This document shows, piece after piece, positions 5,893 through 39,845 of a DNA stretch of 39,966 nt. The DNA is taken from positions 1 to 39,966 of the forward strand of contig CALUVH010000017.1 of the NCBI GenBank assembly GCA_944324175.1. Reading direction: 5' to 3'. Position 1 is the stretch's first letter. Each line of letters opens with the position of its first letter. The notes under the pieces are model-generated. The model was not told the origin of the DNA. It worked only from the letters and a program-made list of their open reading frames with translations, and did not search any database. The stretch comes from Candidatus Gastranaerophilales bacterium (GTDB lineage Bacteria > Cyanobacteriota > Vampirovibrionia > Gastranaerophilales > Gastranaerophilaceae). A program made the position numbers and the translations under genes.

Positions 5893-6705
5893 TCAAACTG
5901 CATAAGAAAAATCAACTGATTTTAAAACTTTACTGAGCTCCATATAATGCCCATTATCTAAAAGCTCATAAAATATTTTACAAGTAACGGGTGCTAAGGC
6001 TTTTACCCATTCATTGTCTATATATAATCCTTCAACAAACCTTGCAAAAAGCTCTGTTGGACGCTCATAGTATCTTTTGTATTTACTTATTCTAGATGTA
6101 ATTCTTGACTGCTTTCTTAGCATAGACCTAAGTCTGATATACGCTGCAAAAGCTTTAGGCATGTCCGGAAAATCAGCTTCAAGATTGTCTATCGTAAAAA
6201 TTTCTTCTCTGGTTTGGAAAAAACCTCCAATTAATTTAACCCTATCATACTTTAATAGGTATCGCGCTTTTGATCTTCTTATGTACCTGTCAAATTCTTT
6301 AAACTTTTTTGAACGCAAAAATTGCGGATAATCAGATTTTATAATCTGCTCATAGAATTTAATTTTACTTTTTACCCTGTCTTTGTGTTCCAAAAGTTTC
6401 ACGCACATAGAATTTTCATCAACAAAATGAGTCACTTTTATCAACTCTTCTTTTATTAATGGGTTTTTGCTCAAAAAAAGTATCTCTAAAGACCCACCAT
6501 TTTGATTAATATCTTTTTCAAGTTTCGAATGAATGTAATGAGCAAATTCATGCAATAGCGTCGGTACAACTCGAGATTTAGGAATATTTTTAGAAATATC
6601 AATACGATTTTTCATAAAAAAACCCTGATGCCCTCGTGCATGCGTAGTTGTATTTACTTCTAACCCAAGTGAACGAAAATATTTTATTAAATCTTTTTCT
6701 TCCAT
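5893..6705 (-). CDS. Predicted zincin-type metalloprotease-like protein, HEFAH motif
   Basis: A protein of about 270 residues, family not recognised. LLHEFAHYIHSKLE is an HExxH zinc motif near residues 52-56, preceded by a short domain with HARGHQGFFMKNRIDIS. A second element, RPTELFARFVEGLY near residue 215, could give the third zinc ligand as in gluzincin-like minor proteases. The middle is basic and helical (KFKEFDRYIRRSKARYLLKY). No signal peptide or membrane segment is seen, so it is probably cytoplasmic. A GTG at 6711 is in frame, but the ATG at 6705 lies exactly 6 nt after an extended -10 TGC-TATAAT (6712-6720) with no Shine-Dalgarno, suggesting a leaderless transcript. Protease activity and substrate are unknown. 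Confidence 0.7.
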   Translation of the reverse strand: MEEKDLIKYFRSLGLEVNTTTHARGHQGFFMKNRIDISKNIPKSRVVPTLLHEFAHYIHSKLEKDINQNGGSLEILFLSKNPLIKEELIKVTHFVDENSMCVKLLEHKDRVKSKIKFYEQIIKSDYPQFLRSKKFKEFDRYIRRSKARYLLKYDRVKLIGGFFQTREEIFTIDNLEADFPDMPKAFAAYIRLRSMLRKQSRITSRISKYKRYYERPTELFARFVEGLYIDNEWVKALAPVTCKIFYELLDNGHYMELSKVLKSVDFSYAV

Positions 6706-6711
6706 AACCAC

Positions 6712-6763: not shown

Positions 6764-8149
6764 TTAAAAAATCTTATACGGATTTAAAATATTGTTAGGA
6801 TCAAAAACTTTTTTTATCATTCGCATATAATCCAACGCTTGCGAATTTACAACTTTTGAAATATATTCCCGTTTAGCAGCACCTATACCATGCTCTCCTG
6901 ATAAAATGCCATCCAAACGTGCAGTAAGTTCGTATATCTCATTTTTTGCAAGTTTATACCTGCGATATTCATCTTTATCATTATAATTTATCGGGATCTG
7001 CGGATGCACACTTCCATCTCCTACATGCCCCACCATACAAACTTCTAAACGATATTTTTTGCATATCGCGCGTATTCCCATAACTAACTTTTCAAGATTT
7101 TTCCTTGGAACAATTACATCATCTGTCGTAACATTCGGTCTTAACTTTGCACAAGCCCCCATAGATGACCTGCGAGCCTGCCAGATTCTGTGATAATCGT
7201 CTTCTGTTTTTGAATACTGAATGCTTGATGCTCCGCAAGTTTCCAGAATAGAAACAATCGTTTTTTGTTGGAATTCAACGGCACTCTCAAAACCATCAAC
7301 TTCTATAATCAGCGCCGATTCTTTATCACACAAAAGCCCTGTAGGATAAAAACGCTCAACAGTCTGTATTGCATTTTTGTCCATAAAATCAATTGTTACA
7401 GGAAATATTTGTTGCTCGATTACGGCATTTACAGCATCTACAGATGCTTTTACAGTATCAAAATAAGCCATTATAACACGCGCAAGCTGGGGCTTAGGTA
7501 TTAACTTTAAAGTTGCTTCAACAACTATACCAAGTGTGCCTTCTGAACCTACAAACAAAGTATTCAAGTTATACCCTGTAGCATTTTTTATTGTACTGGA
7601 ACCTGTACGCAATAATTCACCAGATGCCGTGACAACAAGCAAATCTATCACATAATCCTTTGTCGAACCGTACTTAAAAGTTCTCGCACCTCCTGAGGAT
7701 TGTGCAATACTTCCCCCAATAGTTGAAACGGCAAGATTGGAAGGATCAGGAGGATAATATAAACCTAAAGCTTCCACCTGTCTTTGTAATTCTCCCACAA
7801 CAACTCCTGGTTGAACTTTTGCTGTCATGTTTTCTGAAGATATCTCAAGTATTTTGTTCATCTTCGAAAAATTTAAAATAATTCCACCATGCTCAACTGT
7901 ACAAGCTCCAACGACGTTAGTTCCCGCACCACGACAAATTATTGGAATTTTGTACTTATTTGCAAGTCTTACGACCGCTTGCACTTGTTCTATGTTTTCG
8001 ACAAAGACTACTACGTCAGGAAGTTTTTTTATTTCAGGTAAATTGAGCGCATCCTGTGCGTATGCGTATCTTTCTTCTATTTCAGTCAATACATTTTGCG
8101 GGGTTAATGCACTTTTTAATTCTTTTATTATATTATTCCTCATCAACAT
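6764..8149 (-). CDS. FAD-linked oxidase, GlcD / D-lactate dehydrogenase family
   Basis: A 461-residue flavoprotein predicted to oxidise a 2-hydroxy acid such as glycolate or D-lactate. Residues about 40-180 form the PP-loop/FAD-binding type 4 domain: the stretch IICRGAGTNVVG, then PPDPSN, TIGGSIAQSSGGARTFKYG and GSEGTLGIV. Residues about 215-458 are the FAD-oxidase C-terminal domain, with the metal/substrate motif VGHVGDGSVHP and LSGEHGIGAAKREY near the end. Length fits GlcD. The start overlaps the end of the giant coiled-coil gene by 17 bp, with an alternative ATG at 8143. No separate ribosome binding site is seen, so translational coupling is likely. Substrate cannot be set from sequence. 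No GlcE/GlcF partner is in the window. Confidence 0.88.
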   Translation of the reverse strand: MLMRNNIIKELKSALTPQNVLTEIEERYAYAQDALNLPEIKKLPDVVVFVENIEQVQAVVRLANKYKIPIICRGAGTNVVGACTVEHGGIILNFSKMNKILEISSENMTAKVQPGVVVGELQRQVEALGLYYPPDPSNLAVSTIGGSIAQSSGGARTFKYGSTKDYVIDLLVVTASGELLRTGSSTIKNATGYNLNTLFVGSEGTLGIVVEATLKLIPKPQLARVIMAYFDTVKASVDAVNAVIEQQIFPVTIDFMDKNAIQTVERFYPTGLLCDKESALIIEVDGFESAVEFQQKTIVSILETCGASSIQYSKTEDDYHRIWQARRSSMGACAKLRPNVTTDDVIVPRKNLEKLVMGIRAICKKYRLEVCMVGHVGDGSVHPQIPINYNDKDEYRRYKLAKNEIYELTARLDGILSGEHGIGAAKREYISKVVNSQALDYMRMIKKVFDPNNILNPYKIF

Positions 8150-11100
8150 AAGAAGCCAGCTTTTCTACATTTATACTTAATTTATTGATTAATTTTTCAA
8201 TTTTGTCAACTTTTTTGTTTAGTTTTGTATCATCTGTCTCTTCTAAAGTTGTAAGCACTTTTTCAAGTTTCATTTCTAAACGGTCAATACGTTCTTGCTG
8301 TTCTTCAAATTTTTCTTCCAGTGTTTTGAATAAATCAGCTTTTTCCGGTAAATAATTTTTTAACTCATGAATTGTATCTTTTACCTGACCAATTTCATCA
8401 GTTACGTTATCAATTTCATTTACCTTGTCAGTAAGTGAATTCATACTCACAGTTGCATTATCAACCCATTCACCCAAGTACATCAAAACTTCTTTTATAA
8501 CCTTATTAGAATTGGAAGATGCCACCATTGCATTGTTAATACCTGCAATTTTCTTTTCTATTCTTTTTTGAATTTCGGTATTATCCAAATAGTTAACTTT
8601 TTCATTCAAATTATTAACCATGCCCTTAAATGCATCAAGTCCTTCACTCAAAGATTTATATGAATTGTCAGAATTCAAAAGTAGAGTATTGGTACGAGTA
8701 CTGATACTTACAATATCTTCATTAATCTTGTCAAAATCTGCTTTAAATTTTGCAAATTCTTCCTGAGTCAAAGTAGTTTGCAAATCTTTAACCGTATTTT
8801 CGATTTTTGACACATTATCTGCTAACTGATTTAACTCATCATTTGGCGCAGACTCAGAAATATCATTCAATATTAAACGCAATTTGGCAATATCAGATTC
8901 CACATCCTGCAATGAGTATGAATAGTTATCTTCACCGGAATTATTTGCTATCAAACGCAATTGGTTTTGAACTTCTTTAATATGACCAGAAATTTCATCT
9001 GTCTTTTCTTCTACAAAACCTTTTATTTCCTCAGTTTCTTCAATAAAAGAAATCTGTTCAAATACGCTTGCTATTGCTTCAATTAAAGATTCTTTAAGAT
9101 TTTCAGCATGATCTTTAATATCTTTTGCACTAGCGTCGACATCAATTGATTTAACATCTTCTGAGATATCATCTATTTTCTTTTGCAACTCTTGCAGACA
9201 ATCATCCATTGCTATGGTTCTGTCGCTAATTTCTGTATCTTCAAGGAATTTTCTTTGAGATGAAATCATTGACTTGATGTTTTTAATTTCACCTTCTACA
9301 TCAAAACCATCAAATACATCCTTTTCAGAAAGTGCAACCACTTCATCCTGAAGTTTTTGTAGTGTACTTTCAATCTGATCGCCAGTACCAGCCAAATCAT
9401 CCATTTTATATGATAAATCTGTTAAATTCTCATTTATTCTTTCATCAGCCTCTGCGAATGTATCAATCTTTGCAGAAACAACATCTACAGATTCTATAAT
9501 TTTAGACACATCGCCCTGAACTATGTCAGCAGTATTAGTAAATTTATCTATTTTATCAGATACACCGTCTAATGATTCTGAAATTTTAGATACATCGCTT
9601 TGAACTAAATCAGTAGTATCTACAACTTTATCTATTTTATCAGATACAAAAGTTACAGATTCGCCAACTTTCAATAAGCCATCTTTTATTGTTTCTGTAT
9701 TCTCATTACAATCATCAAGTTTTGTAGAAATATCATCAATCACATCTGCCATTTTTACATCAGCATTGTGACAATCAGATACTTTTTCATGTAATGAATC
9801 CAAACTTGACACGATATGTTCATTATTTGTATTAAATTTAAACACATCAATTTTATCAGAAAGGACTTCCATAGTCTTAACAATTGCACCATCGTTAAAG
9901 GCGAAATCTTCAAACTTCTGACCGAATTCAGCAAGAGTTTGTTTTACGTCCTTATCATTATTTTCAATTTTTTCAGTAACAGTACCCAGTGAAGCAGCGA
10001 TATTTTTAGTAAAACCTGCAACTTTATCTACCGTAGAATTAACATCATCAATTTTACTTACATTTTCTGCGATGTTATTTAAAACACCGGTCATCTGATC
10101 CGCAACAGCATGGATTTCATCAGCTTTATCTGATACTTCAGAAGATTTCCTCAAAAGTTGATCATCAACAATAGAGAATGTATCCATTTTTACAGACAAG
10201 CCTTCCATAGCCTCAATAAGTTTTGCATCATAATCATGCGCAGCATCGGCTTTATCATTAAGCATATCCAAAGAAGTTGCGATATGTTCTTTGGTTGAAT
10301 CTACTTTTAAAATATCGACCTTATCTGATATTTCTTTAATCGACAACGCAATTTGCTCATCATTATTTGTAATTGTTTCAACTCTTTGAGTCAAATCTTC
10401 CACATTGTCATTAATTTTACCAACATTCAACGCGACTCTATCGGTGATAACATCTATGCTTCTTGATAGAATTTCATTAGTGGTCAATACCTTGTCTGAT
10501 ACATCATCTACACTATTCAAAACTAATTTTGTAGCTGAGGTAATCTTTTCAGACACATCATTTACTTTATCTGAAATAGCTTGCTTTTCATCTGAAAGTT
10601 TTTCATTAACTGCAAGTAAAGAACTTTTAATTATCTGTTCTTGCTGCGCAAAATTATCAGCTAAATTATTTTGAATATTTTGCCCGTTTTCTACAATGCT
10701 ATTATTAATAGTTGAAATATTATCAAGGATTTCAGCCTTATTTTCTTTTGCATTATCAGAAAGTACATCTAAACCATTAAGCATTACTTGGGCAGTGTCA
10801 GTAAACTTTGAAGATACAGCATCGACTGAACTTGCAAAAACATCACCTACAGATGAAACATTTTCTTTTAATTGTTCAAAAGCTTCAGCAATTTTCTCAT
10901 TATTGGATGATATATTTTCAATTTTACTGTTAATATCATCAACTGCTTGACCATTTTTTTCTATGTTTAAGGCTATTACATCTGACTTTTCACTAACATT
11001 ATCTAAAGCTCGAGCGATACGGTCATCAGTATCAGAAAAAGCATCTACCTTCTCAGATAATATATCCATTTTCTCGCTAATCTTGTCTGCTGAATCGCCT

Positions 11101-14100
11101 ACTATCTCAATTTTATCACTTATTGAATTTATTAAATCCTTTGATCGTTCACTTTCTTCTCCGACAGCTTCGATTTTTTGAGTCAATGTATCCATTGTCT
11201 CAATCACGCGTTCATCAGTCATTCCAAAAGCTTCTACTTTATTTGTAAGTTCATCTATACTATCTACAACTTTTTCTGAATTATTTCCCAAAATTTCTAC
11301 TTTATCGGAAATATTATTCAAAGATTGGTTGATTTCATCATCTGAAACTGAAAACGTCTCTATTTTATCAAGCACAACATCAATAGTCCTTGATATTCTA
11401 TCATCGGACTCATTGGCTGAATCCATTTTTTCATTTAACAATTGCACATCATTAAGTAACTGAACTTCAGAATTTGCTGATTGATCAACTTTTTCTAATA
11501 ATGAATCTATCGTTTGAGATATCTTACCATCAGTTTCATTGAGTGAATCCATTTTTTCATTAAGGTATTGCATACCTTGAGTGATTTGTTCATTGTTTGA
11601 GGCATCGTCAATTTTATTAGAAATCAAATCCAAAGCTTGTGTTATCTGTTCATCAACAGCTGCAAAAGTATCAACTTTATCTGAAATAGCTGCAACAGAT
11701 TGAGCCAACTCTTCTGATTTTTGAGCGACTTCAGATGTCTTATCTGAAATTTCTGAAATTGCATTACTTACACCTTCACCGCGAATGTTAATTGTCTCAA
11801 CCGTTTCATTAACCGATGCCAACTCTTGAGATAATTGCTCAGCATTTTGGCGCAACCCGCTAAATTTTTCTGCAACATTCATTAGTGAATTTGCAATTTG
11901 TTCATCCGTTGAGCCTAAAGTGTTAAACTGTTCCTGAAATTCTTGGATTATCTGAGCATTTTTTTCAGCTTTTTCGCTTAAGTTGTCCACTTTAGAATTT
12001 AGTGATATTAACGCTTCGGTATTTTCACCACTACCACTTGGAAGATTTTCAAGTTTCTCTAAGATTTCAACAGCTTTGCTATCTATGCCACTTACTTTTT
12101 CATGTAATTCAACGTCAGCACCTTTTTCAAGCAAAGTATCCACTTTTTCATGTAATACATCCATAGAAGCTGTCGAAGATTTTGCGACCTCTTTCATTGC
12201 GATAAGGATAATATTTTTTAAATCCTTAAGACCGGACATAATTTGCATTCTGCTATTACCAAGTATCTCGTTGAACTCATCATTTGAATAGCGGATTCCC
12301 AGTTCCTCAACCTTCACACCCAATTGATTTAATATTAAAAGAATTTCTTCTTTTGCATCAACATCATCATCTTTTGAAGATTGTCTGGACTCTAATTCTC
12401 CTAACTTTGTACTTAATTCACTTTTAAGCGTGTCAACAGACCACATTAGATCGTTAGCACTCACAGGCGCACCAATGTGAGATTTTAAATCTTCTAAAAC
12501 TGATTCCAGTTTAGCATTCAATGCATTTGTGACATCAACAGCTACACTTGAAAGTAAAGTACCACAGTTTTCATTTATCTCATTTATCTTACCGTCAATA
12601 TTAACAAGAATAGACTTCCACTCACTCATAATTTGAGAATTTTCATTCAAATTATTTTCAAGGTTTTTGCCTATTTCATCAGCAATAGTTCTAATTGCCT
12701 CAAGGTTCCCTTGCGCTTGGGAGGAAAACACTTGATCCATTCCATTAATTTTATCAATTGTCTCACTATAAATTTTCTCTAACCCTTCAGATAAAGTTTG
12801 ACTTTGTCCTAGTGTCATTTGCATCTGAGAATTGACATTTGCATAGACTTGCGACAATTGTTCTTTTAACTCAATTAAATTATCTGAAAAATCATTTTCT
12901 GTTATCGCCTTAATTCCATTTTTTATAGGCTCTAAAGCCTGCATTAAATCATCTGTTTTGCCGCTTAAAACCTCAACAACTTCTTGATTGAAGTTTTCGG
13001 TTCCATCCTTGATTTCCGACAATTTAGAAATATAACGCTCTGCATTTTCTGAAAAATTCTTTTGTAACTCAAATAATTTAGCTGAAATTTTGTCCTCTAA
13101 TACAACACCTTCTGATTTGTAAGCATCAGTTACCTCTGATATAAAATCTTTTAATTGCTCACTTAACCCCTTAATCTCATTAAAATTAGCAGGTACATCA
13201 TTTGCAAGGTAATTATTAACAAAATCCAGTTTTGTACTTACAACACTTATTGCAGAGTTTATCAAATCAGCATTTTCAGAAGCTTTTTGATGAAAATCGA
13301 ATGACACATCATCCAGTTTTGCAGAAAGTTCACCCAAACCGTTTTTTACAGTATTCAAATTGTCATTACTTATAGCATCTATACTACCTGCAATGCTATT
13401 TAATTTATCCATAAAGTCTAGCGATTGAAGAGATTTAAGAATCTGTTCAATCTTCTCTTTATTTTCAACTAAGTCATTGTTGAGAAAATTAGAATTATCA
13501 ACTATTTTTTTAATAAAGTCTGTCAAATCAGCTCTAAAAGCATTGAAGTCCTCTTCTGTAATTACAGCCGAAAGTTTTTGATCCAACTGTTGCAGACTAT
13601 GAGCAACATTATCATATTCACCGATATCTTGCATCATTGTCTTTACATTATCCATCACATATGCAAGTCCGTCAATTTTGCTTGAAATTGTATCAAAATC
13701 GAGCGAAAGACTAATTTCACTAATATGTGAATCAATATCATTAACACGATCGATTATATCTTCAATTTTTTGCTGTGCAAAGTCAAAATTTTCTCTAGTC
13801 ATGAGCTGAGCTACAGCACGAGCCAGTTCGTCATTTTTTTGATCAAAAATTTGTAAAGAAGACAAAATACCATTGGTTGCAAGATAAATTGTCTCCAGCT
13901 CTTTTTTTATAATATCATTTTGTACCGTCGGATCCATCGACATTATATTTTGTATAATGGATTGCAAACTATTGTTAACATCAATTATATTAGCCTCAAA
14001 ACCGTGATTAAGATTTTCAATAGCAGCGAGTTTTTCTGAAAGTTTATTTTCAGATGCAGCTTGAGCTGATGCAAGTGCAGCACCGTTTGAATTGATATAA

Positions 14101-14759
14101 TCTTTTATATCTGCAGTACGCATCTCAATCAATTCACGATAATTACTTGATTGTACAACTAAATTTTCACCAAGTACCCTTATGTCATCCGCAAGAGCGC
14201 CAAAATTTTGTGTATTTTTATCATCAGCACTTTGACGCTCACTTTGCATTTGCGCATGCTGTCTTGATATCTCTTGAGAAATATTTTCTATCAAGTCACG
14301 AGTCGTATCAAAGTTAAAAGAAATTCTCTCTGAAACATCATCGCTTACTTTTACAATTGAAGAATTTACACTATTAATTTCACTAACAATGCTTCGCAAA
14401 TTTTCACTATTTTTTTCTAAGAAAGACTTTTCAAGATTTTCTAAATTATCTTCAACTTTTTGAATTAAAGAATCTATATCAGTAGCCTTAGCATTTAATT
14501 CCTGATTGGAACTTATATACCTGAATGCTTGACCAAACTCTTCATATTTCACTTGGTTACTTTCATAGTGGTTGTTAATTTCATTTCTTAATTCAATCAA
14601 ATAATCCTTCAAAGCAGCATTTGCCTCAACATCATCAGCTATTGTCTCTATCTTTTCCATAACAACAGCTAATCTTTTTTGGATTTCATCTGAACTAATA
14701 TCCGTATCCAACTTTAATGTTCTTAGTATTTCAGCAATTTCTTCAATTGTTTGTGACAT
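8133..14759 (-). CDS. Giant repetitive coiled-coil protein (2208 residues), function unknown
   Basis: Not recognised beyond being a very long coiled coil. It has no signal peptide and no membrane segment (start MSQTIEEIAEILRTLK), so a cytoplasmic filament, scaffold or nucleoid/cell-shape role is possible but unproven. It is acidic and rich in Asp, Glu, Ser, Asn, Ile, Val and Lys. Residues about 1025-1805 (DNA about 9350-11685) contain many tandem 21-residue units with consensus (S/N)-(E/D)-K-(V/I)-(D/E)-x-F-x3-D-(E/D)-(R/K)-I-x3-(L/M)-D-x-(L/I). Variants of 18, 20, 23 and 28 residues also occur. Flanking parts are less regular coiled coil. AAGGA is about 12 nt before the ATG. The end overlaps the FAD oxidase start. 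The antisense reading frames over this gene are treated as shadows. Confidence 0.85.
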   Translation of the reverse strand: MSQTIEEIAEILRTLKLDTDISSDEIQKRLAVVMEKIETIADDVEANAALKDYLIELRNEINNHYESNQVKYEEFGQAFRYISSNQELNAKATDIDSLIQKVEDNLENLEKSFLEKNSENLRSIVSEINSVNSSIVKVSDDVSERISFNFDTTRDLIENISQEISRQHAQMQSERQSADDKNTQNFGALADDIRVLGENLVVQSSNYRELIEMRTADIKDYINSNGAALASAQAASENKLSEKLAAIENLNHGFEANIIDVNNSLQSIIQNIMSMDPTVQNDIIKKELETIYLATNGILSSLQIFDQKNDELARAVAQLMTRENFDFAQQKIEDIIDRVNDIDSHISEISLSLDFDTISSKIDGLAYVMDNVKTMMQDIGEYDNVAHSLQQLDQKLSAVITEEDFNAFRADLTDFIKKIVDNSNFLNNDLVENKEKIEQILKSLQSLDFMDKLNSIAGSIDAISNDNLNTVKNGLGELSAKLDDVSFDFHQKASENADLINSAISVVSTKLDFVNNYLANDVPANFNEIKGLSEQLKDFISEVTDAYKSEGVVLEDKISAKLFELQKNFSENAERYISKLSEIKDGTENFNQEVVEVLSGKTDDLMQALEPIKNGIKAITENDFSDNLIELKEQLSQVYANVNSQMQMTLGQSQTLSEGLEKIYSETIDKINGMDQVFSSQAQGNLEAIRTIADEIGKNLENNLNENSQIMSEWKSILVNIDGKINEINENCGTLLSSVAVDVTNALNAKLESVLEDLKSHIGAPVSANDLMWSVDTLKSELSTKLGELESRQSSKDDDVDAKEEILLILNQLGVKVEELGIRYSNDEFNEILGNSRMQIMSGLKDLKNIILIAMKEVAKSSTASMDVLHEKVDTLLEKGADVELHEKVSGIDSKAVEILEKLENLPSGSGENTEALISLNSKVDNLSEKAEKNAQIIQEFQEQFNTLGSTDEQIANSLMNVAEKFSGLRQNAEQLSQELASVNETVETINIRGEGVSNAISEISDKTSEVAQKSEELAQSVAAISDKVDTFAAVDEQITQALDLISNKIDDASNNEQITQGMQYLNEKMDSLNETDGKISQTIDSLLEKVDQSANSEVQLLNDVQLLNEKMDSANESDDRISRTIDVVLDKIETFSVSDDEINQSLNNISDKVEILGNNSEKVVDSIDELTNKVEAFGMTDERVIETMDTLTQKIEAVGEESERSKDLINSISDKIEIVGDSADKISEKMDILSEKVDAFSDTDDRIARALDNVSEKSDVIALNIEKNGQAVDDINSKIENISSNNEKIAEAFEQLKENVSSVGDVFASSVDAVSSKFTDTAQVMLNGLDVLSDNAKENKAEILDNISTINNSIVENGQNIQNNLADNFAQQEQIIKSSLLAVNEKLSDEKQAISDKVNDVSEKITSATKLVLNSVDDVSDKVLTTNEILSRSIDVITDRVALNVGKINDNVEDLTQRVETITNNDEQIALSIKEISDKVDILKVDSTKEHIATSLDMLNDKADAAHDYDAKLIEAMEGLSVKMDTFSIVDDQLLRKSSEVSDKADEIHAVADQMTGVLNNIAENVSKIDDVNSTVDKVAGFTKNIAASLGTVTEKIENNDKDVKQTLAEFGQKFEDFAFNDGAIVKTMEVLSDKIDVFKFNTNNEHIVSSLDSLHEKVSDCHNADVKMADVIDDISTKLDDCNENTETIKDGLLKVGESVTFVSDKIDKVVDTTDLVQSDVSKISESLDGVSDKIDKFTNTADIVQGDVSKIIESVDVVSAKIDTFAEADERINENLTDLSYKMDDLAGTGDQIESTLQKLQDEVVALSEKDVFDGFDVEGEIKNIKSMISSQRKFLEDTEISDRTIAMDDCLQELQKKIDDISEDVKSIDVDASAKDIKDHAENLKESLIEAIASVFEQISFIEETEEIKGFVEEKTDEISGHIKEVQNQLRLIANNSGEDNYSYSLQDVESDIAKLRLILNDISESAPNDELNQLADNVSKIENTVKDLQTTLTQEEFAKFKADFDKINEDIVSISTRTNTLLLNSDNSYKSLSEGLDAFKGMVNNLNEKVNYLDNTEIQKRIEKKIAGINNAMVASSNSNKVIKEVLMYLGEWVDNATVSMNSLTDKVNEIDNVTDEIGQVKDTIHELKNYLPEKADLFKTLEEKFEEQQERIDRLEMKLEKVLTTLEETDDTKLNKKVDKIEKLINKLSINVEKLASYVDEE
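9350..11685 (-). repeat. Block of tandem 63-bp (21-residue) coding repeats
   Basis: In the giant coiled-coil gene, successive units such as NEKMDSLNETDGKISQTIDSL, LDKIETFSVSDDEINQSLNNI and TNKVEAFGMTDERVIETMDTL align without gaps at 21 residues, which is three heptads. The units are diverged at DNA level, so this is an old repeat. Insertions of 2 or 7 residues (units of 23 and 28) occur in the C-terminal half of the block. Confidence 0.75.
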
Positions 14760-14939
14760 TTCTCTTCTCTTTCCTTGATTAAAAGTTAGTATAATCTCCC
14801 CATAATAATATAGTAACAGAATAACATAAAATAACGCAAAAATGTTAACGAATTTTATTACAATTGTAAAGAAAAAGTGTTTTATTTTATTTTTAGTGCT
14901 AGTATTGGAATTAGACGAAAGAAATTTGGGCGAGGTACT
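14760..14939. promoter_or_regulatory. Divergent intergenic region between the giant gene and the oxidoreductase operon
   Basis: An A+T-rich region of 180 bp. Rightwards, an extended -10 TGC-TAGTAT (14898-14905) lies about 35 nt before the ferredoxin start at 14940, with no clear -35. Leftwards, the Shine-Dalgarno of the giant gene is present but no confident promoter is seen. Confidence 0.35.
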
Positions 14940-15152
14940 ATGAACTACATAACCATTGATAAAGAAAAATGTAAGGCTTGCTATTTATGCATTAATGAAT
15001 GCCCGAAAAAGCTTTTACAAGTAAGTAAAGATACCAATAAACTTGGGGATCACGTAGTTGAATTTAATGACCCTGACAACAAATGTCTGGGATGTGCAAT
15101 GTGTGCGACGAGATGTCCTGATATGGCAATTACAGGTGTTTATAAAGGATAA
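14940..15152 (+). CDS. korD: 2-oxoacid:ferredoxin oxidoreductase, delta (2x[4Fe-4S] ferredoxin) subunit
   Basis: A 70-residue ferredoxin carrying two clusters: CKACYLCINECP and CLGCAMCATRCP. It would pass electrons from the TPP-bound reaction centre to external ferredoxin. The reading frame is open back to 14877, but that extension is not ferredoxin-like. GAGG at 14932-14935 lies 4 nt before the ATG at 14940, giving MNYITIDKEKC. It is the first gene of a four-gene operon (delta, alpha, beta, gamma), 5 bp from the next gene. Confidence 0.92.
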   Translation: MNYITIDKEKCKACYLCINECPKKLLQVSKDTNKLGDHVVEFNDPDNKCLGCAMCATRCPDMAITGVYKG

Positions 15153-15157
15153 GTTTT

Positions 15158-16237
15158 ATGGCTGAATGTTTAATCAAGAATAGTAAAAAAGTTTTAATAA
15201 AAGGTAACTATGCAATAGCGCAAGCCGCAATTAAAGCAGGTTGTGAATGCTATTTCGGATATCCGATAACTCCACAAAGTGAAATAGGTGAGTATATGAG
15301 TGGAGAAATGCAAAGATTAAAACGAGCTTATGTTTCGGCAGAGAGTGAACTTGCAGCGATAAATATGGTAGTAGGGGCATGCTCTACAGGAGCAAAAGCC
15401 ATGACTTCCTCCTCATCATGCGCTGTCGCACTGATGCAGGAAGCTCTGTCTTATGCAACATCAGATGAACTGCCTGTCGTACTTATAAGCGTTATGCGTG
15501 CCGGCCCTGGGCTCGGTAATATCTATCCTTCACAAGGTGACTATAATCAAGCGACAAAAGGTGGCGGAAACGGTGATTATAAACTTATCGTACTCTCACC
15601 GTCTACAGTACAAGAATGCATTGACTTAACTTACAAAACATTCTATCTTGCTCATAAATACAAAAATCCAACTGTACTATTAGCTGACGGTCTGCTTGGA
15701 CAAATGATGGAACCTGTTGAATTTTCTGAGTATCCATACCCTGAAATAGATAACTCAGGATGGGCATTAACTGGAGCTAAGGGCAGATCTGCAAGAAAGA
15801 TAAGATCATATGCGCCATTGGAAGCTCCACAGTGCGAACATGTTAAAAATATGTTTAATAAATACAAACTGCTTGAAGAAAATGAAGTTATGTATGAAGA
15901 ATATGGTACAGAAGATGCAGATTTAGTTGTAACCTGTTTTGGCAGTCTTGCTCGTAATGTAAAATCAGCAATAAAAAGATGCCAAGAAAAAGGTTTAAAA
16001 GTCGGATTTTTCAGACCTATTACATTATTCCCGTTCCCAAATAAACGCCTAAAAGAAATATCCAACAACGCGAAAAAAATTCTTGTCACGGAAGTTAATA
16101 TGGGACAAATGTTGAATGATGTAAAACTCGCAGTAAACGGGAAAATACCTGTTGAGTTTTATGGAAAACCTGTAGGTGCTTGGCCTAACGTAGACGACAT
16201 TGTGGAAGCCATAGAAAAAGAAATTAAAGGGGTATAG
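15158..16237 (+). CDS. korA: 2-oxoacid:ferredoxin oxidoreductase, alpha subunit
   Basis: A 359-residue alpha subunit of a 2-oxoglutarate or branched-chain 2-oxoacid:ferredoxin oxidoreductase. This enzyme makes the acyl-CoA, CO2 and reduced ferredoxin. Motifs are GNYAIAQAAIKAGCECYFGYPITPQSE with the YPITP signature, AESELAAINMVVGAC, and the C-terminal PITLFPFP. Length fits KorA/VorB. A ribosome site AAAGGA lies in the end of korD. Oxoglutarate versus branched-chain substrate cannot be told from sequence alone. Confidence 0.92.
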   Translation: MAECLIKNSKKVLIKGNYAIAQAAIKAGCECYFGYPITPQSEIGEYMSGEMQRLKRAYVSAESELAAINMVVGACSTGAKAMTSSSSCAVALMQEALSYATSDELPVVLISVMRAGPGLGNIYPSQGDYNQATKGGGNGDYKLIVLSPSTVQECIDLTYKTFYLAHKYKNPTVLLADGLLGQMMEPVEFSEYPYPEIDNSGWALTGAKGRSARKIRSYAPLEAPQCEHVKNMFNKYKLLEENEVMYEEYGTEDADLVVTCFGSLARNVKSAIKRCQEKGLKVGFFRPITLFPFPNKRLKEISNNAKKILVTEVNMGQMLNDVKLAVNGKIPVEFYGKPVGAWPNVDDIVEAIEKEIKGV

Positions 16238-16239
16238 AT

Positions 16240-16995
16240 ATGACAACACAAATTTTTGATATACCAAAGTCATTCAAAAAAGATATGAAATACACATTCT
16301 GCCCCGGATGCGATCATGGGGTAGCAATAAGACTTATTGCAGAGATACTGGATGAGCTTAATCTTAAAGAAAGTTCCATTATGGCAACATCCATCGGTTG
16401 CTCTGTTACCCTGTATGACTTTTTAGAAGTGGATGCAATCGAAGCACCTCATGGCAGAGCTCTTGCAGAAGCAACCGGAGTAAAAAGAGCAAGACCTGAT
16501 AAGTTTGTATTTACCTACCAGGGTGATGGAGATTTTGCCTCAATCGGGCTGGCCGAGAGCTTACATGCTGCACTTCGCGGAGAAAATTTGAGTGCTATAT
16601 GCATAAACAACACAACTTATGGAATGACCGGTGGTCAATTGGGACCTACAACTCTTTTGGGACAAGTTACAACAACTTCACCTACCGGTAGAAATGTTGA
16701 ATATTACGGATATCCAATAAAAATAGCAGAACATGTTGCACTATGCGAAGGCACTGCTTACAGTGCAAGGGTATCACTTGATACTGTAGCTAATATTAAA
16801 AAAGCAAAACAAGCTATAAAAAAAGCTTTTGAGGTTCAAATCAACGGCCTTGGATTCGGGTTTGTTGAAATTTTGTCAACCTGCCCTACAAACTGGAAAA
16901 TGACACCTCAACAAGCTCATGAAAGAGTAAGAAATGAAATGATGCCAATATTTAAACCTGGCGTATATAAAGATGTTACTTTACAAGAAAATTAG
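16240..16995 (+). CDS. korB: 2-oxoacid:ferredoxin oxidoreductase, beta (TPP-binding) subunit
   Basis: A 251-residue TPP-binding subunit. CPGCDHG near residue 25 gives cluster/active-site cysteines. GDGDFASIGLAE is the TPP/Mg-binding motif, completed by NNTTYGMTGGQ. It begins 2 bp after korA with its Shine-Dalgarno (AAAGGGG) inside the korA end. It pairs with alpha as the catalytic core. Confidence 0.92.
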   Translation: MTTQIFDIPKSFKKDMKYTFCPGCDHGVAIRLIAEILDELNLKESSIMATSIGCSVTLYDFLEVDAIEAPHGRALAEATGVKRARPDKFVFTYQGDGDFASIGLAESLHAALRGENLSAICINNTTYGMTGGQLGPTTLLGQVTTTSPTGRNVEYYGYPIKIAEHVALCEGTAYSARVSLDTVANIKKAKQAIKKAFEVQINGLGFGFVEILSTCPTNWKMTPQQAHERVRNEMMPIFKPGVYKDVTLQEN

Positions 16996-17015
16996 TTATT
17001 GAAGGAATAGTGGTG

Positions 17016-17561
17016 ATGGAAAAGAATTTTATAATTGCCGGATTTGGCGGTCAGGGTGTACTTTTAGCAGGAGAAGTTTTAGCAAATGCATTTATGATCT
17101 CAGGTAAAAATGTTACTTGGTATCCATGCTATGGAGCAGAAATGCGCGGAGGAACTGTCAACTGTGAAATAGTTATGAGTGACGATGAAGTAAGTGCTGT
17201 AAATAAAAAAGAAGCAGACTTTGTCGTAGCTTTGAATCAAGCATCTTTTAATAAATTTGTGTCTAAAATAAAAAAAGGCGGATGGATGATTGTCAATTCG
17301 TCACTTGCAAAAGAAATTAAGACTCGCACAGATATTAATTATTTATTTGCACCTATAACCAAATTGGCTGAAAATCTTGGTAATATAAAAATGACTAATA
17401 TTCTTGCATTGGGTCTACTTGCTAAAGCAAGTAAACTAGTTTCAGTAGAAGCTCTCAGCCATGCGTTGGATACGGTTATTCCTCCGCATAGAAAAAATCT
17501 TTTGCCATTGAACCTAAAAGCCTTGCAAATAGGCTATGAATACGAATTGCTACCTGTGTAG
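17016..17561 (+). CDS. korC: 2-oxoacid:ferredoxin oxidoreductase, gamma subunit
   Basis: A subunit of about 181 residues of the POR/KOR gamma family: FIIAGFGGQGVLLAGEVLA, SYGAEMRGG in the form CYGAEMRGGTVNCE, and PPHRKNLLPLNLKAL at the end. GTG codons at 17010 and 17013 precede the ATG at 17016. AAGGA at 17002-17006 spaces best (9 nt) to the ATG. It is the last gene of the operon. No strong terminator follows, only an imperfect repeat of GATTTAAAAT around 17561-17590. Confidence 0.92.
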   Translation: MEKNFIIAGFGGQGVLLAGEVLANAFMISGKNVTWYPCYGAEMRGGTVNCEIVMSDDEVSAVNKKEADFVVALNQASFNKFVSKIKKGGWMIVNSSLAKEIKTRTDINYLFAPITKLAENLGNIKMTNILALGLLAKASKLVSVEALSHALDTVIPPHRKNLLPLNLKALQIGYEYELLPV

Positions 17562-18079: not shown

Positions 18080-18526
18080 ATGATAAATAGTGTAATTAAA
18101 TTAATTTTATTTATAGTTTATTTTATTTTAATATCATACCTGCCATTAATTATCTGGGTATTATTTGTGTTTTATTTTACAACAGATATAACAAACATCT
18201 TTACAGGTATTATATCAACTATAATAATATTATTAAGTATACTTACTTTGTTTAAAATACAATGGCTGTTTTTATATATTCCTGTTTTAAAAATTATAAA
18301 TAAACCAACAAATATATTGCCAGACAAAATTTTTAAAAACGTAAAAATAGCTGATAAAATTATGCTCTCTTGTATTTTAATTGATGTATTGGTTATCATA
18401 ATTAATTATAATCTTATTTGTGATACTTTTAATAATATTTGGTTCTATATCATCTATTTATCATTTAGCAGTAATTATTTAATTATATATCATTTAACAA
18501 TAGAAAATTCAAAACTAAACACATAG
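18080..18526 (+). CDS. Small integral membrane protein, first of a paralogous pair
   Basis: A 148-residue protein of unknown family with about four hydrophobic segments (near residues 5-33, 45-75, 92-112 and 117-140). It shares with the next gene the same length, an FKIQWL...IP motif in segment 2 and a NYLIIY motif near the C-terminus. No Shine-Dalgarno is visible before the ATG. Codon use is extremely A+T-rich even for this genome. Function unknown. Confidence 0.6.
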   Translation: MINSVIKLILFIVYFILISYLPLIIWVLFVFYFTTDITNIFTGIISTIIILLSILTLFKIQWLFLYIPVLKIINKPTNILPDKIFKNVKIADKIMLSCILIDVLVIIINYNLICDTFNNIWFYIIYLSFSSNYLIIYHLTIENSKLNT

Positions 18527-18613: not shown

Positions 18614-19060
18614 ATGAATAAACATTTAAAAGGCATCATATTATTTATTATTTACTTAATAATTATAATATATTTGCCTTTTATTGTTTACACTTTTGCA
18701 TTAACCCTCATTCATTTTAAATTCATCTTTTCAGTATTTGTTTTTTATTTTTATGTAGCATTTAGTTTATTACAGGTTTTCAAGATACAATGGCTGTTGT
18801 TGTTAATACCGGCAATTCTCATAATTAAAACATCTAAAAATCCATTTATAATAAGGTTATTGACGGATTTAAGACTAAATAATAAACTATTGTTATTAGC
18901 ATTATTTTTTGATATTGCGGTATTGATTATAGAATTTAACTTAATTGAACAAAAACTTGGTTTTCAACTCTATTCAATATATTATTCTCTTACTGGAAAC
19001 TATTTAATCATATATCTGTTTACTCTATTTTATAACTTTAAAAAGAAGAATTCTCAATAA
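18614..19060 (+). CDS. Small integral membrane protein, second of a paralogous pair
   Basis: 148 residues with about four hydrophobic segments, parallel to the preceding gene (VFKIQWLLLLIP, NYLIIYLFT), but otherwise strongly diverged. It has its own promoter and AAGG about 8 nt before the ATG. It is likely a tandem duplication. No enzymatic motif is seen. Confidence 0.62.
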   Translation: MNKHLKGIILFIIYLIIIIYLPFIVYTFALTLIHFKFIFSVFVFYFYVAFSLLQVFKIQWLLLLIPAILIIKTSKNPFIIRLLTDLRLNNKLLLLALFFDIAVLIIEFNLIEQKLGFQLYSIYYSLTGNYLIIYLFTLFYNFKKKNSQ

Positions 19061-26850: not shown

Positions 26851-27966
26851 CTATTTAAAACACCTAGCGCGGTGGCTAGAATCGTCCACATTGTAGTTGG
26901 ACCAGAGACTGCTGGAAGAGTCGAAGTAGCGCTCGCATGCGTTGCTGGTACCCTCGGACGCACTCGACCAATAGTACCAGCCGTTAGTGGACCAGTTGAG
27001 CTCAGCTGCTCGGGTTGCATCTGGAGTTATGTTGCTTCTGGTTTCTTGTGCTCCTATCGGGTTGTCTTGTTTGTATATGTATGTCGCTACGTCTGCCAAT
27101 TCTTGCATCGTTGGTAATCTCATATCATCGCCACATGCTTTCTTTGCTCCTGCCCAATAGTTTGTTGAACAAGATGTGTTTTCACTATCTGAGCGTTCAT
27201 CGTACTCGTGGTCGGGACTTCCTTCACATGTGTTTATTGAGGTTATTGGATAGATATCGCTTGCCGCTATGCATTTGTCTTGGAATTTCATATCGCAATC
27301 AGAAATTGTTGCATTCTTTAATTGGATATCATCACCTACTCTATTTGGACCTTTCTTACCGTTTACATCTATCAACATACTCATGCAACCTACCTGACCG
27401 TTTTGTCCTTCTGAGCTGAATGGGTCGACACTGCTACAATTCGGGTTATATGCCATAACTACCGTTGTACCATCTGCTATTACAAACCCCATTGTATTTG
27501 TACCCCAATCTTTTTGCCCTAAACTATTTGCAGTTGTTAGGCTGCTTACTTCTACTTCTGTTTCTTTATCGCCTGTTTGCACAAACTTCGGTGCGTAGCA
27601 GTTTTCTAATTTATCGTTTTCACAGGTTTTGATTACTTTTACATACTTCTTAAAATAGTTCATGTAATCTTCTGTTGTACTTGCTACTCCTGTCATTACG
27701 CCGTCTATGTTCATTTGACGCGTCGCTTCAACAAGCTTCTTGTCCCACAAGTCTTTTGCCGTTTTCCAAGCTTTGTCGTTGTGGTTCTCTATCATACTTG
27801 GAATTGTCAATGCCGCCACTATTCCGATTATGCTAAGCGTGATTAGCACTTCAGCCAGAGTAAATGCGCTCCGACCAAAACCAAGGTTTAAATGTGGATT
27901 TCGTCCACCCTCAGCCAATGTAAACGCGGTTCGTGCTAAATAATTCTTGTGTTTGTTTTTTGCCAT
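26851..27966 (-). CDS. Pilin-like surface protein with variable C-type-lectin-like C-terminus (copy 1)
   Basis: 371 residues. Two class III-type prepilin motifs lie near the start: AFTLAEGGR, then SAFTLAEVLITLSIIG with the typical ~20-residue hydrophobic helix. Ala replaces the usual Gly before Phe. The middle (residues about 50-270) has paired cysteines and is nearly identical to the copy at 38727. The end has RLPTMQELADVA and a motif W-S-x-YYWSS-x-EGT...RYF-x-SSS...RARCF. This resembles the fib_succ_major/DUF1566-type C-type-lectin fold used by DGR variable proteins. Codons differing from copy 2 cluster here. AAAGGAG lies ahead of the ATG. It is likely exported and assembled or displayed by a type IV pilus or type II secretion machine encoded elsewhere. 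Confidence 0.82.
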   Translation of the reverse strand: MAKNKHKNYLARTAFTLAEGGRNPHLNLGFGRSAFTLAEVLITLSIIGIVAALTIPSMIENHNDKAWKTAKDLWDKKLVEATRQMNIDGVMTGVASTTEDYMNYFKKYVKVIKTCENDKLENCYAPKFVQTGDKETEVEVSSLTTANSLGQKDWGTNTMGFVIADGTTVVMAYNPNCSSVDPFSSEGQNGQVGCMSMLIDVNGKKGPNRVGDDIQLKNATISDCDMKFQDKCIAASDIYPITSINTCEGSPDHEYDERSDSENTSCSTNYWAGAKKACGDDMRLPTMQELADVATYIYKQDNPIGAQETRSNITPDATRAAELNWSTNGWYYWSSASEGTSNACERYFDSSSSLWSNYNVDDSSHRARCFK

Positions 27967-38726: not shown

Positions 38727-39845
38727 TTAATTACTAAAACATCTAGCACGGAAGTTTGAGTCGTACACGCCATAATTGTTCCTGTTAGTGCTGGAAGAGC
38801 CGAAGTAGCGTAGGAGTGCGTAGCAGGTACCGTCAGGCTCGCTCGACCAATAGCTCCAGCTAATGGACCAATTGAGTTCCGCTACCCGATCCGAATCTGG
38901 GGTTATACCATCTCTATATGCATCTCCTATCGGGTTATCTTCCTGTTTGTAGATGTATGTTGCTACATCTGCAAGTTCTTGCAGCGTTGGTAATCTCATT
39001 CCATTCTCTACGCATGCTTTCTTTGCTCCCGCCCAATAGTTAATTGAACAAGAACTGTTTTCACTATCTGAGCGTTCATCATAGTCATGGTCAGGACTTC
39101 CTTCACACGTGTTTATTGCTGTTGTTGGATAGATATCGCTTGCGGCTATACATTTGTCTTGGAATTTCATATCACAAGTGGAGATTGTTGCATTCTTTAA
39201 TTGGATATCATCGCCTACTCTGTTTGGACCTTTCTTGCCGTTTACATCTATCAACATACTCATACAACCTACCTGACCGCTTTGACCTTCTTTACTGAAT
39301 GGGTCTACGCTACTGCAATTCGGATTGTATGCCATTACTACTGTTGTACCGTCTGCTATTACAAATCCCATTGTATTTGTATTCCACTCTTTTTGTCCTA
39401 GTTTGCTTGCGGTTGTTAGGCTACTTACTTCTACTTCGGTTTCTTTATCGCCTGTTTGAACAAACTTTGGTGCGTAGCAGTTTTCTAATTTATCGTTTTC
39501 ACAGGTTTTGATTACTTTTACATACTTCTTAAAATAATTCATGTAATCTTCTGTGCTGTTTGCTACTCCTGTCATCACGCCGTCTATATTCATTTGACGG
39601 GTCGCTTCTACAAGTTTTTTGTCCCACAGGTCCTTTGCTGTTGACCAAGCTTTGTTGTTATGGTTCTCTATCATGCTTGGAATCGTCAGCGCTGCAACTA
39701 TTCCGATTATGCTCAGTGTGATTAGCACTTCTGCTAAAGTAAAGGCACTTTTACGTTGACACAGGTTCAAATGTGGTCTTCGACCACCCTCGGCTAAAGT
39801 AAACGCAGTTCGCGCTGAATAATTCTTTTGTTCGTTCTTTGTCAT
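38727..39845 (-). CDS. Pilin-like surface protein with variable C-type-lectin-like C-terminus (copy 2)
   Basis: 372 residues, closely similar to the protein at 26851-27966. It has the same doubled A-F-T-L-A-E start, the same hydrophobic pilin helix, and a nearly identical cysteine-bearing middle. The last ~50 residues keep the frame W-S...YWSS...GT...RYF-x-SSS...RARCF but differ at many scattered positions (for example GTSNACERYFD in copy 1, GTCYALLRYFG here). One codon is missing near NWS. AAAGGAG precedes the ATG. A role as an exported adhesin or receptor-binding protein is inferred from the fold pattern. Confidence 0.82.
   Translation of the reverse strand: MTKNEQKNYSARTAFTLAEGGRRPHLNLCQRKSAFTLAEVLITLSIIGIVAALTIPSMIENHNNKAWSTAKDLWDKKLVEATRQMNIDGVMTGVANSTEDYMNYFKKYVKVIKTCENDKLENCYAPKFVQTGDKETEVEVSSLTTASKLGQKEWNTNTMGFVIADGTTVVMAYNPNCSSVDPFSKEGQSGQVGCMSMLIDVNGKKGPNRVGDDIQLKNATISTCDMKFQDKCIAASDIYPTTAINTCEGSPDHDYDERSDSENSSCSINYWAGAKKACVENGMRLPTLQELADVATYIYKQEDNPIGDAYRDGITPDSDRVAELNWSISWSYWSSEPDGTCYALLRYFGSSSTNRNNYGVYDSNFRARCFSN

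Follow-up and report, generated by a model that had tools for sequence, protein, structure and literature searches.

Genomes of Candidatus Gastranaerophilales encode a giant coiled-coil protein that, judged from sequence comparison, represents a real, conserved, and unnamed family. It is described here from a window of 39,966 nucleotides, the whole stretch of DNA that was analyzed. On balance, we favor the view that this core protein of the order Gastranaerophilales is a homo-oligomeric coiled coil that acts in the cytoplasm as a scaffold or tether, a reading that draws on its conserved ends, its charged and nearly proline-free helical rod, purifying selection, near-universal presence, and the variability of the rod. 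No paper describing the protein was found in the open-access literature.

Gene and predicted protein

8133..14759, minus strand: gene for the giant coiled-coil protein, 2208 amino acids (ATG at 14759, stop at 8135..8133)

An earlier, sequence-only reading of the window had placed an open reading frame of 2208 residues at 8133-14759 without naming its strand. A reading-frame check of the window confirmed a single unbroken frame of 2208 codons and assigned it to the minus strand (14759..8133), the plus strand over the same interval being closed by many stops. The start at 14759 is supported by the N-terminal sequence M(A/S)QTIEEIAEIL, which is conserved throughout the genus. The predicted product has a mass of 245 kDa, a pI of 4.3, and a composition of 10% aspartate, 10% glutamate, and 0.3% proline, with seven prolines, four cysteines, and three tryptophans in all. 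Its N terminus is a charged helix. No signal or transmembrane segment was detected in the protein (highest 19-residue Kyte-Doolittle mean, 0.98) or in 80 relatives (highest mean, 1.45), which agrees with the earlier statement that such segments are absent and supports its view of a giant, by sequence cytoplasmic, and largely helical coiled coil.

Single-chain AlphaFold2 models, all of low confidence, consisted of helices only, both for the C-terminal block (pLDDT 61, pTM 0.22) and for residues 1 to 560 (pLDDT 70, pTM 0.28); the longest unbroken helix spanned 183 residues. Such low model confidence is as one would expect of an extended oligomer modeled as one chain. No solved chain matched the whole protein at E 0.001, and a profile of its C-terminal part matched only assorted coiled coils among solved structures.

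Distribution in the order

Relatives were found in 36 of 59 genomes when the whole protein served as the query. The C-terminal profile, built from ~330 residues, matched 271 of 286 sampled Gastranaerophilales genomes and, counted by table rows, 258 of the 264 from the window's family; by these profile matches, the gene is a core gene of the order and near-universal in that family. A few genomes of the window's family had no match, so that the protein is not strictly essential, although some of these gaps are contig breaks. Matches in genera g21, g26, and g50 were weak (E 1e-14 to 1e-4) and uncertain, and no clear homolog was seen in families f2 to f5 of the order. Across genomes sampled from the entire class, a single one from outside the order gave a match, an unconvincing one (E = 2.7e-4). 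Among GTDB contigs, 294 relatives were confirmed and 80 kept, most of them titled Candidatus Gastranaerophilales or Melainabacteria and a few coming from metagenome bins with other names.

Conserved ends and purifying selection

14439..14759, minus strand: conserved N terminus (M[AS]QTIEEIAEIL...), residues 1-107, at least 64% identity within the genus and recognizable family-wide
13812..14030, minus strand: N-terminal node, residues 244-316, 57% identity in G018 over 245-316
8136..9212, minus strand: C-terminal block, residues 1850-2208, the family-defining part, 84-85% identity in the genus
8460..8474, minus strand: GEWVD, residues 2096-2100, with G, E, W, and D invariant in 47 sequences
8274..8291, minus strand: RIDRLE, residues 2157-2162, an R-h-x-x-h-E trimerization motif with R and L nearly invariant and E invariant

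Conservation is seen at both ends of the protein. The N-terminal node reads LNHGFEA.IIDVN..LQ.I..N....D.T.QNDIIK.ELE.IY..TN..L..L...DQKNDE, and mean identity within the genus at residues 201 to 300 is 0.89. In the alignment of 47 C-terminal blocks, invariant residues fall within F.EE.EEIKDFVEEKT, Y.Y.LQDVESDIAKLR, S.RTNKLLL.SDES, GEW.D, and RIDRLE, and most of the sequences terminate with SYVDEE, in full or shortened. The R-h-x-x-h-E motif occurs once in the protein, in register with the neighboring a/d positions, and lies 45 to 75 residues from the end in 72 of the 80 relatives. In longer coils, this motif is necessary but not sufficient for trimerization. In FapF, it has been mutated and shown to matter (PMC6173795).

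For one pair of relatives (L033/L034; dS = 0.5-0.64), dN/dS was 0.029 for the C-terminal block, compared with 0.052 for the N-terminal half and 0.054 for the rod, values from which purifying selection is seen to act along the full length of the protein.

Repeats in a variable rod

10932..11690, minus strand: regular array of 12 units of 21 residues (three heptads), residues 1024-1276, from repeat analysis
9345..10328, minus strand: degenerate 21-residue units plus 28-residue units (1678-1789), residues 1478-1805, from repeat analysis

The sequence-only reading had described residues ~1025 to 1805 as built from 21-residue units. The repeats are real: identity at lag 21 over residues 1025 to 1805 was 0.170, whereas shuffles preserving position modulo 7 gave 0.093 +/- 0.010 (highest of 500, 0.120), and the pattern [SNTHLE][EDNTVAQ]K[VIMLAST][DE] occurred 24 times in residues 1025 to 1850, against 1.7 times (maximum, 7) in shuffles. 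The clean array, however, is confined to residues 1024 to 1276, where one of the 12 units has 20 residues and another is split 14+7; residues 1278 to 1477 are nearly devoid of 21-residue units, a few recur in 1478 to 1560, and residues 1678 to 1789 contain 28-residue units. The hydrophobic period is 3.50 at residues 900 to 1300 and 3.62 to 3.66 (hendecad-like) across most of the N-terminal half, indicating that heptad and hendecad-like stretches alternate along the protein. At the DNA level, one short 84-bp tandem array (9473-9662) alone scored well, which marks the repeats as old.

As the defining feature of the protein, the 21-residue units did not hold up. They were present in all six genomes of the window's genus and absent from the other genera examined, some of which had internal periods of 33, 58, 62, 66, or 89 residues and others no clear period; conservation instead marks the ends and the locus. 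The length of complete relatives varies from 1074 to 2675 amino acids (median, 1868), and in these sequences the ends are constant while the length and repeat period of the rod change between genera.

Apparent absence of MreB and cell shape

In 58 genomes of the order, including that of the window, hits to the MreB profile (PF06723) reached at most ~85 bits and came mostly from ORFs of ~615 amino acids, as DnaK would give; three of the 58 genomes had no hit at all. In the other orders of the class, MreB is present in 90 genomes, almost always with more than 400 bits, and Vampirovibrio, which belongs to another order, keeps mreB (PMC4451040). By this comparison of profile scores, the Gastranaerophilales seem to be without MreB. 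Bactofilin was not found in the window's genome. One member of the order has been reported to form rod-shaped cells of 1.1 x 0.5 um (PMC5877343). The apparent absence of MreB, together with a rod-shaped member, makes a cell-organizing role for the giant protein attractive and plausible, as a correlation.

A stronger form of this idea would have the protein act as a cell-shape or wall-organizing cytoskeletal element that replaces MreB, seemingly lost from the order. Besides the observations above, it can draw on cyanobacterial coiled-coil-rich proteins, which affect morphology and cytokinesis (PMC7002697). We nevertheless consider it fairly unlikely: the association is correlation only, and families f2 to f5 are without MreB as well, yet have no clear giant protein.

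Genomic context

6764..8149, minus strand: GlcD-like FAD-linked oxidase directly downstream of the giant gene, with PF01565 and PF02913 over cut-off
8133..8149, minus strand: 17-base overlap of the giant and GlcD genes, with the GlcD ATG inside the codons for Y-V of the final SYVDEE
14877..17561, plus strand: divergent operon for a 2-oxoacid:ferredoxin oxidoreductase (KorD, A, B, C)

The giant gene stands between the divergent KorDABC operon and the GlcD gene, which follows it on the same strand and whose product scored 444 bits against TIGR00387, under the cut-off of that model. Among the best-matching loci, which represent the closer relatives in the family, all 79 that extend beyond the giant gene have a GlcD-like FAD oxidase directly 3' of it. 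The two genes share 17, 14, or 11 bases in 77 of these loci, and KorA was divergent at each of the 69 whose upstream sequence was available. Since the GlcD start codon lies within SYVDEE, the conservation of that terminus may partly serve GlcD. In outgroup families, GlcD occurs without the giant gene in front, and by this comparison the linkage of the two genes is derived. Some shorter relatives adjoin a UDG-like gene (L055, L056, and L059) or a CutA-like gene (L048, L052, and L058), both names coming from reading the sequences and not from a profile search. One locus, L046, carries giant, GlcD, CutA-like, and MP272 genes in one row, and this chain of neighbors ties the long and short forms together as orthologs.

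The constancy of these neighbors would suit a scaffold for metabolic enzymes, namely GlcD and perhaps the 2-oxoacid:ferredoxin oxidoreductase. That the linkage is derived, that shorter orthologs adjoin other genes, and that overlap between neighboring genes is common without physical interaction all speak against such a role, which is decidedly unlikely in our assessment.

Several other genes at these loci were recorded. The UDG-like gene lies directly 5' of shorter or divergent relatives from two families of the order (L055, 2665-3333; L056, 5837-6478; and L059, 4598-5170) and is apparently an ancestral neighbor. MP272 (window 5893-6711, minus strand) has 272 residues and an HEFAHY motif of the HExxH, zincin-like type; many relatives keep it downstream of the giant and GlcD genes, and it had no match in Pfam or NCBIfam. 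In outgroup loci L147 to L166, a gene of ~400 codons follows GlcD and is GlcF-like (PF02754) where hits overlap it (G038, G040, G041, and G045); in the window's clade, no GlcF-like partner adjoins GlcD, and the PF02754 hits of the genome are on another contig (C26). Elsewhere in the window, two paralogous pseudopilin-like proteins (26851-27966 and 38727-39845, both minus strand) have the prepilin motif FTLAE twice near the N terminus and a divergent, Y/S/N-rich C-terminal end. A diversity-generating retroelement at these genes is unlikely, as the genome has no reverse transcriptase match and the differences between the copies involve every kind of base. Two adjacent 148-residue hydrophobic proteins (18080-18526 and 18614-19060, plus strand) look like paralogs, the first of which had no Pfam match.

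Comparison with known families

The earlier reading knew no named family for the protein, and the profile searches support it on this point. The sole curated cut-off that the protein passed, marginally, was that of DUF1664 (PF07889; 36.6 bits against a gathering score of 34.6), with its best stretch in the rod at residues 953 to 1031, away from the conserved blocks; on its own, the C-terminal block scored 20.6 bits, under the same cut-off. SpiroCoCo (NF047515) is likewise a long bacterial coiled coil, and its profile matched the rod at 46.4 bits; its cut-off of 125 bits was not reached, however, and the match lies in the variable rod, outside the conserved ends. EzrA (PF06160) was rejected at 19.9 bits against 39.6, the giant protein having no N-terminal transmembrane anchor.

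In architecture, the protein looks like the bacterial coiled-coil-rich proteins. This intermediate-filament-like class is united by architecture and not by sequence (PMC7002697, PMC6599971), and its members crescentin, FilP, and Scy, as well as the cyanobacterial Syc2039, Slr7083, and Fm7001, are also cytoplasmic, lineage-restricted, and built on a long coiled-coil rod. The giant protein shares the extended cytoplasmic coiled-coil rod, as indicated by its composition, periodicity, lack of transmembrane segments, and low-confidence, helix-only models. It differs from the class in being much longer (the cyanobacterial candidates have ~280 to 650 amino acids; PMC7002697), in its conserved C-terminal block of ~350 residues with a trimer motif, in a repeat unit that changes between genera, and in matching no solved chain at E 0.001.

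In its length and its regular heptads, the coiled coil is also reminiscent of the arms of SMC and Rad50, whose profiles matched the rod (TIGR02168, 102 bits). A chromosome-organizing rod without an ATPase, acting alongside SMC, could be imagined from these matches and from the UDG-like neighbor of some shorter forms. SMC and Rad50, however, have ATPase heads, whereas the giant protein has no Walker A or LSGG (ABC signature) motif, scored far under the TIGR02168 cut-off of 567 bits, and did not have Pfam SMC_N among its hits. Shuffling within positions modulo 7 and shuffling of 7-residue blocks, both of which also upset the register at units of other than 21 residues, each abolished the SMC-type matches, and these controls did not support composition alone as their cause. 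We still regard the matches as generic, since a single 400-residue segment hit 23 unrelated families, in each case below the cut-off and confined to coiled-coil arms. The net negative charge of the protein is ill suited to DNA binding, and the window's genome has a genuine SMC gene at another place; a chromosomal role is thus very improbable, and the suggestion of a partition scaffold made in the earlier reading found no specific evidence.

A phage tail tape-measure protein or secreted adhesin can practically be set aside: weak matches to PHROG tape-measure profiles (best, 52 bits) are outweighed by the lack of any relative among 2.9 million viral contigs, the conserved metabolic and housekeeping neighbors, the core-gene distribution, and the lack of a signal, anchor, or transmembrane segment. 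Of the homologies that the sequence-only reading had named as grounds against itself (phage tape measure, SMC-like, or secreted adhesin), none was found: there was no SMC head, no phage context, and no secretion signal.

Discussion

We return to the scaffold or tether as the preferred reading of the giant protein. Its chains would pair in parallel, nucleated near the C terminus by RIDRLE, and the oligomer is probably a trimer, since the motif is unique in the protein and is kept in 72 of 80 relatives with its R, L, and E highly conserved. Binding of partners, or of further copies of the protein, would fall to the conserved blocks at the ends (GEW.D and neighbors). With ~0.148 nm per residue, a continuous rod would hold its ends ~160 to 400 nm apart over the range of 1074 to 2675 amino acids. 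For the protein of the window, the earlier argument from size stands as arithmetic (2208 x ~0.148 nm = ~330 nm, if one continuous coil), to be set beside the cells of 1.1 x 0.5 um reported for one member of the order. Alternatively, the rods would pack side by side into bundles. A filament or a spacer, as suggested in the earlier reading, may still apply, as may an anchor of poles or wall or a span to another structure.

A more far-reaching proposal, unlikely in our judgment, is that in an order without MreB, a protein with fixed ends and evolvable rod length could be a shape-giving or space-measuring scaffold whose rod would have been re-amplified from different units in each genus.

With this family, an uncultured and widespread gut order gains a core protein that belongs to no named family. 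The protein would be a concrete candidate for how apparently MreB-less cells, at least one member of which is rod shaped, organize themselves, and its constant ends, combined with a rod of variable length and unit, may offer a ready-made series in which to ask how the length of a coiled-coil scaffold is set.
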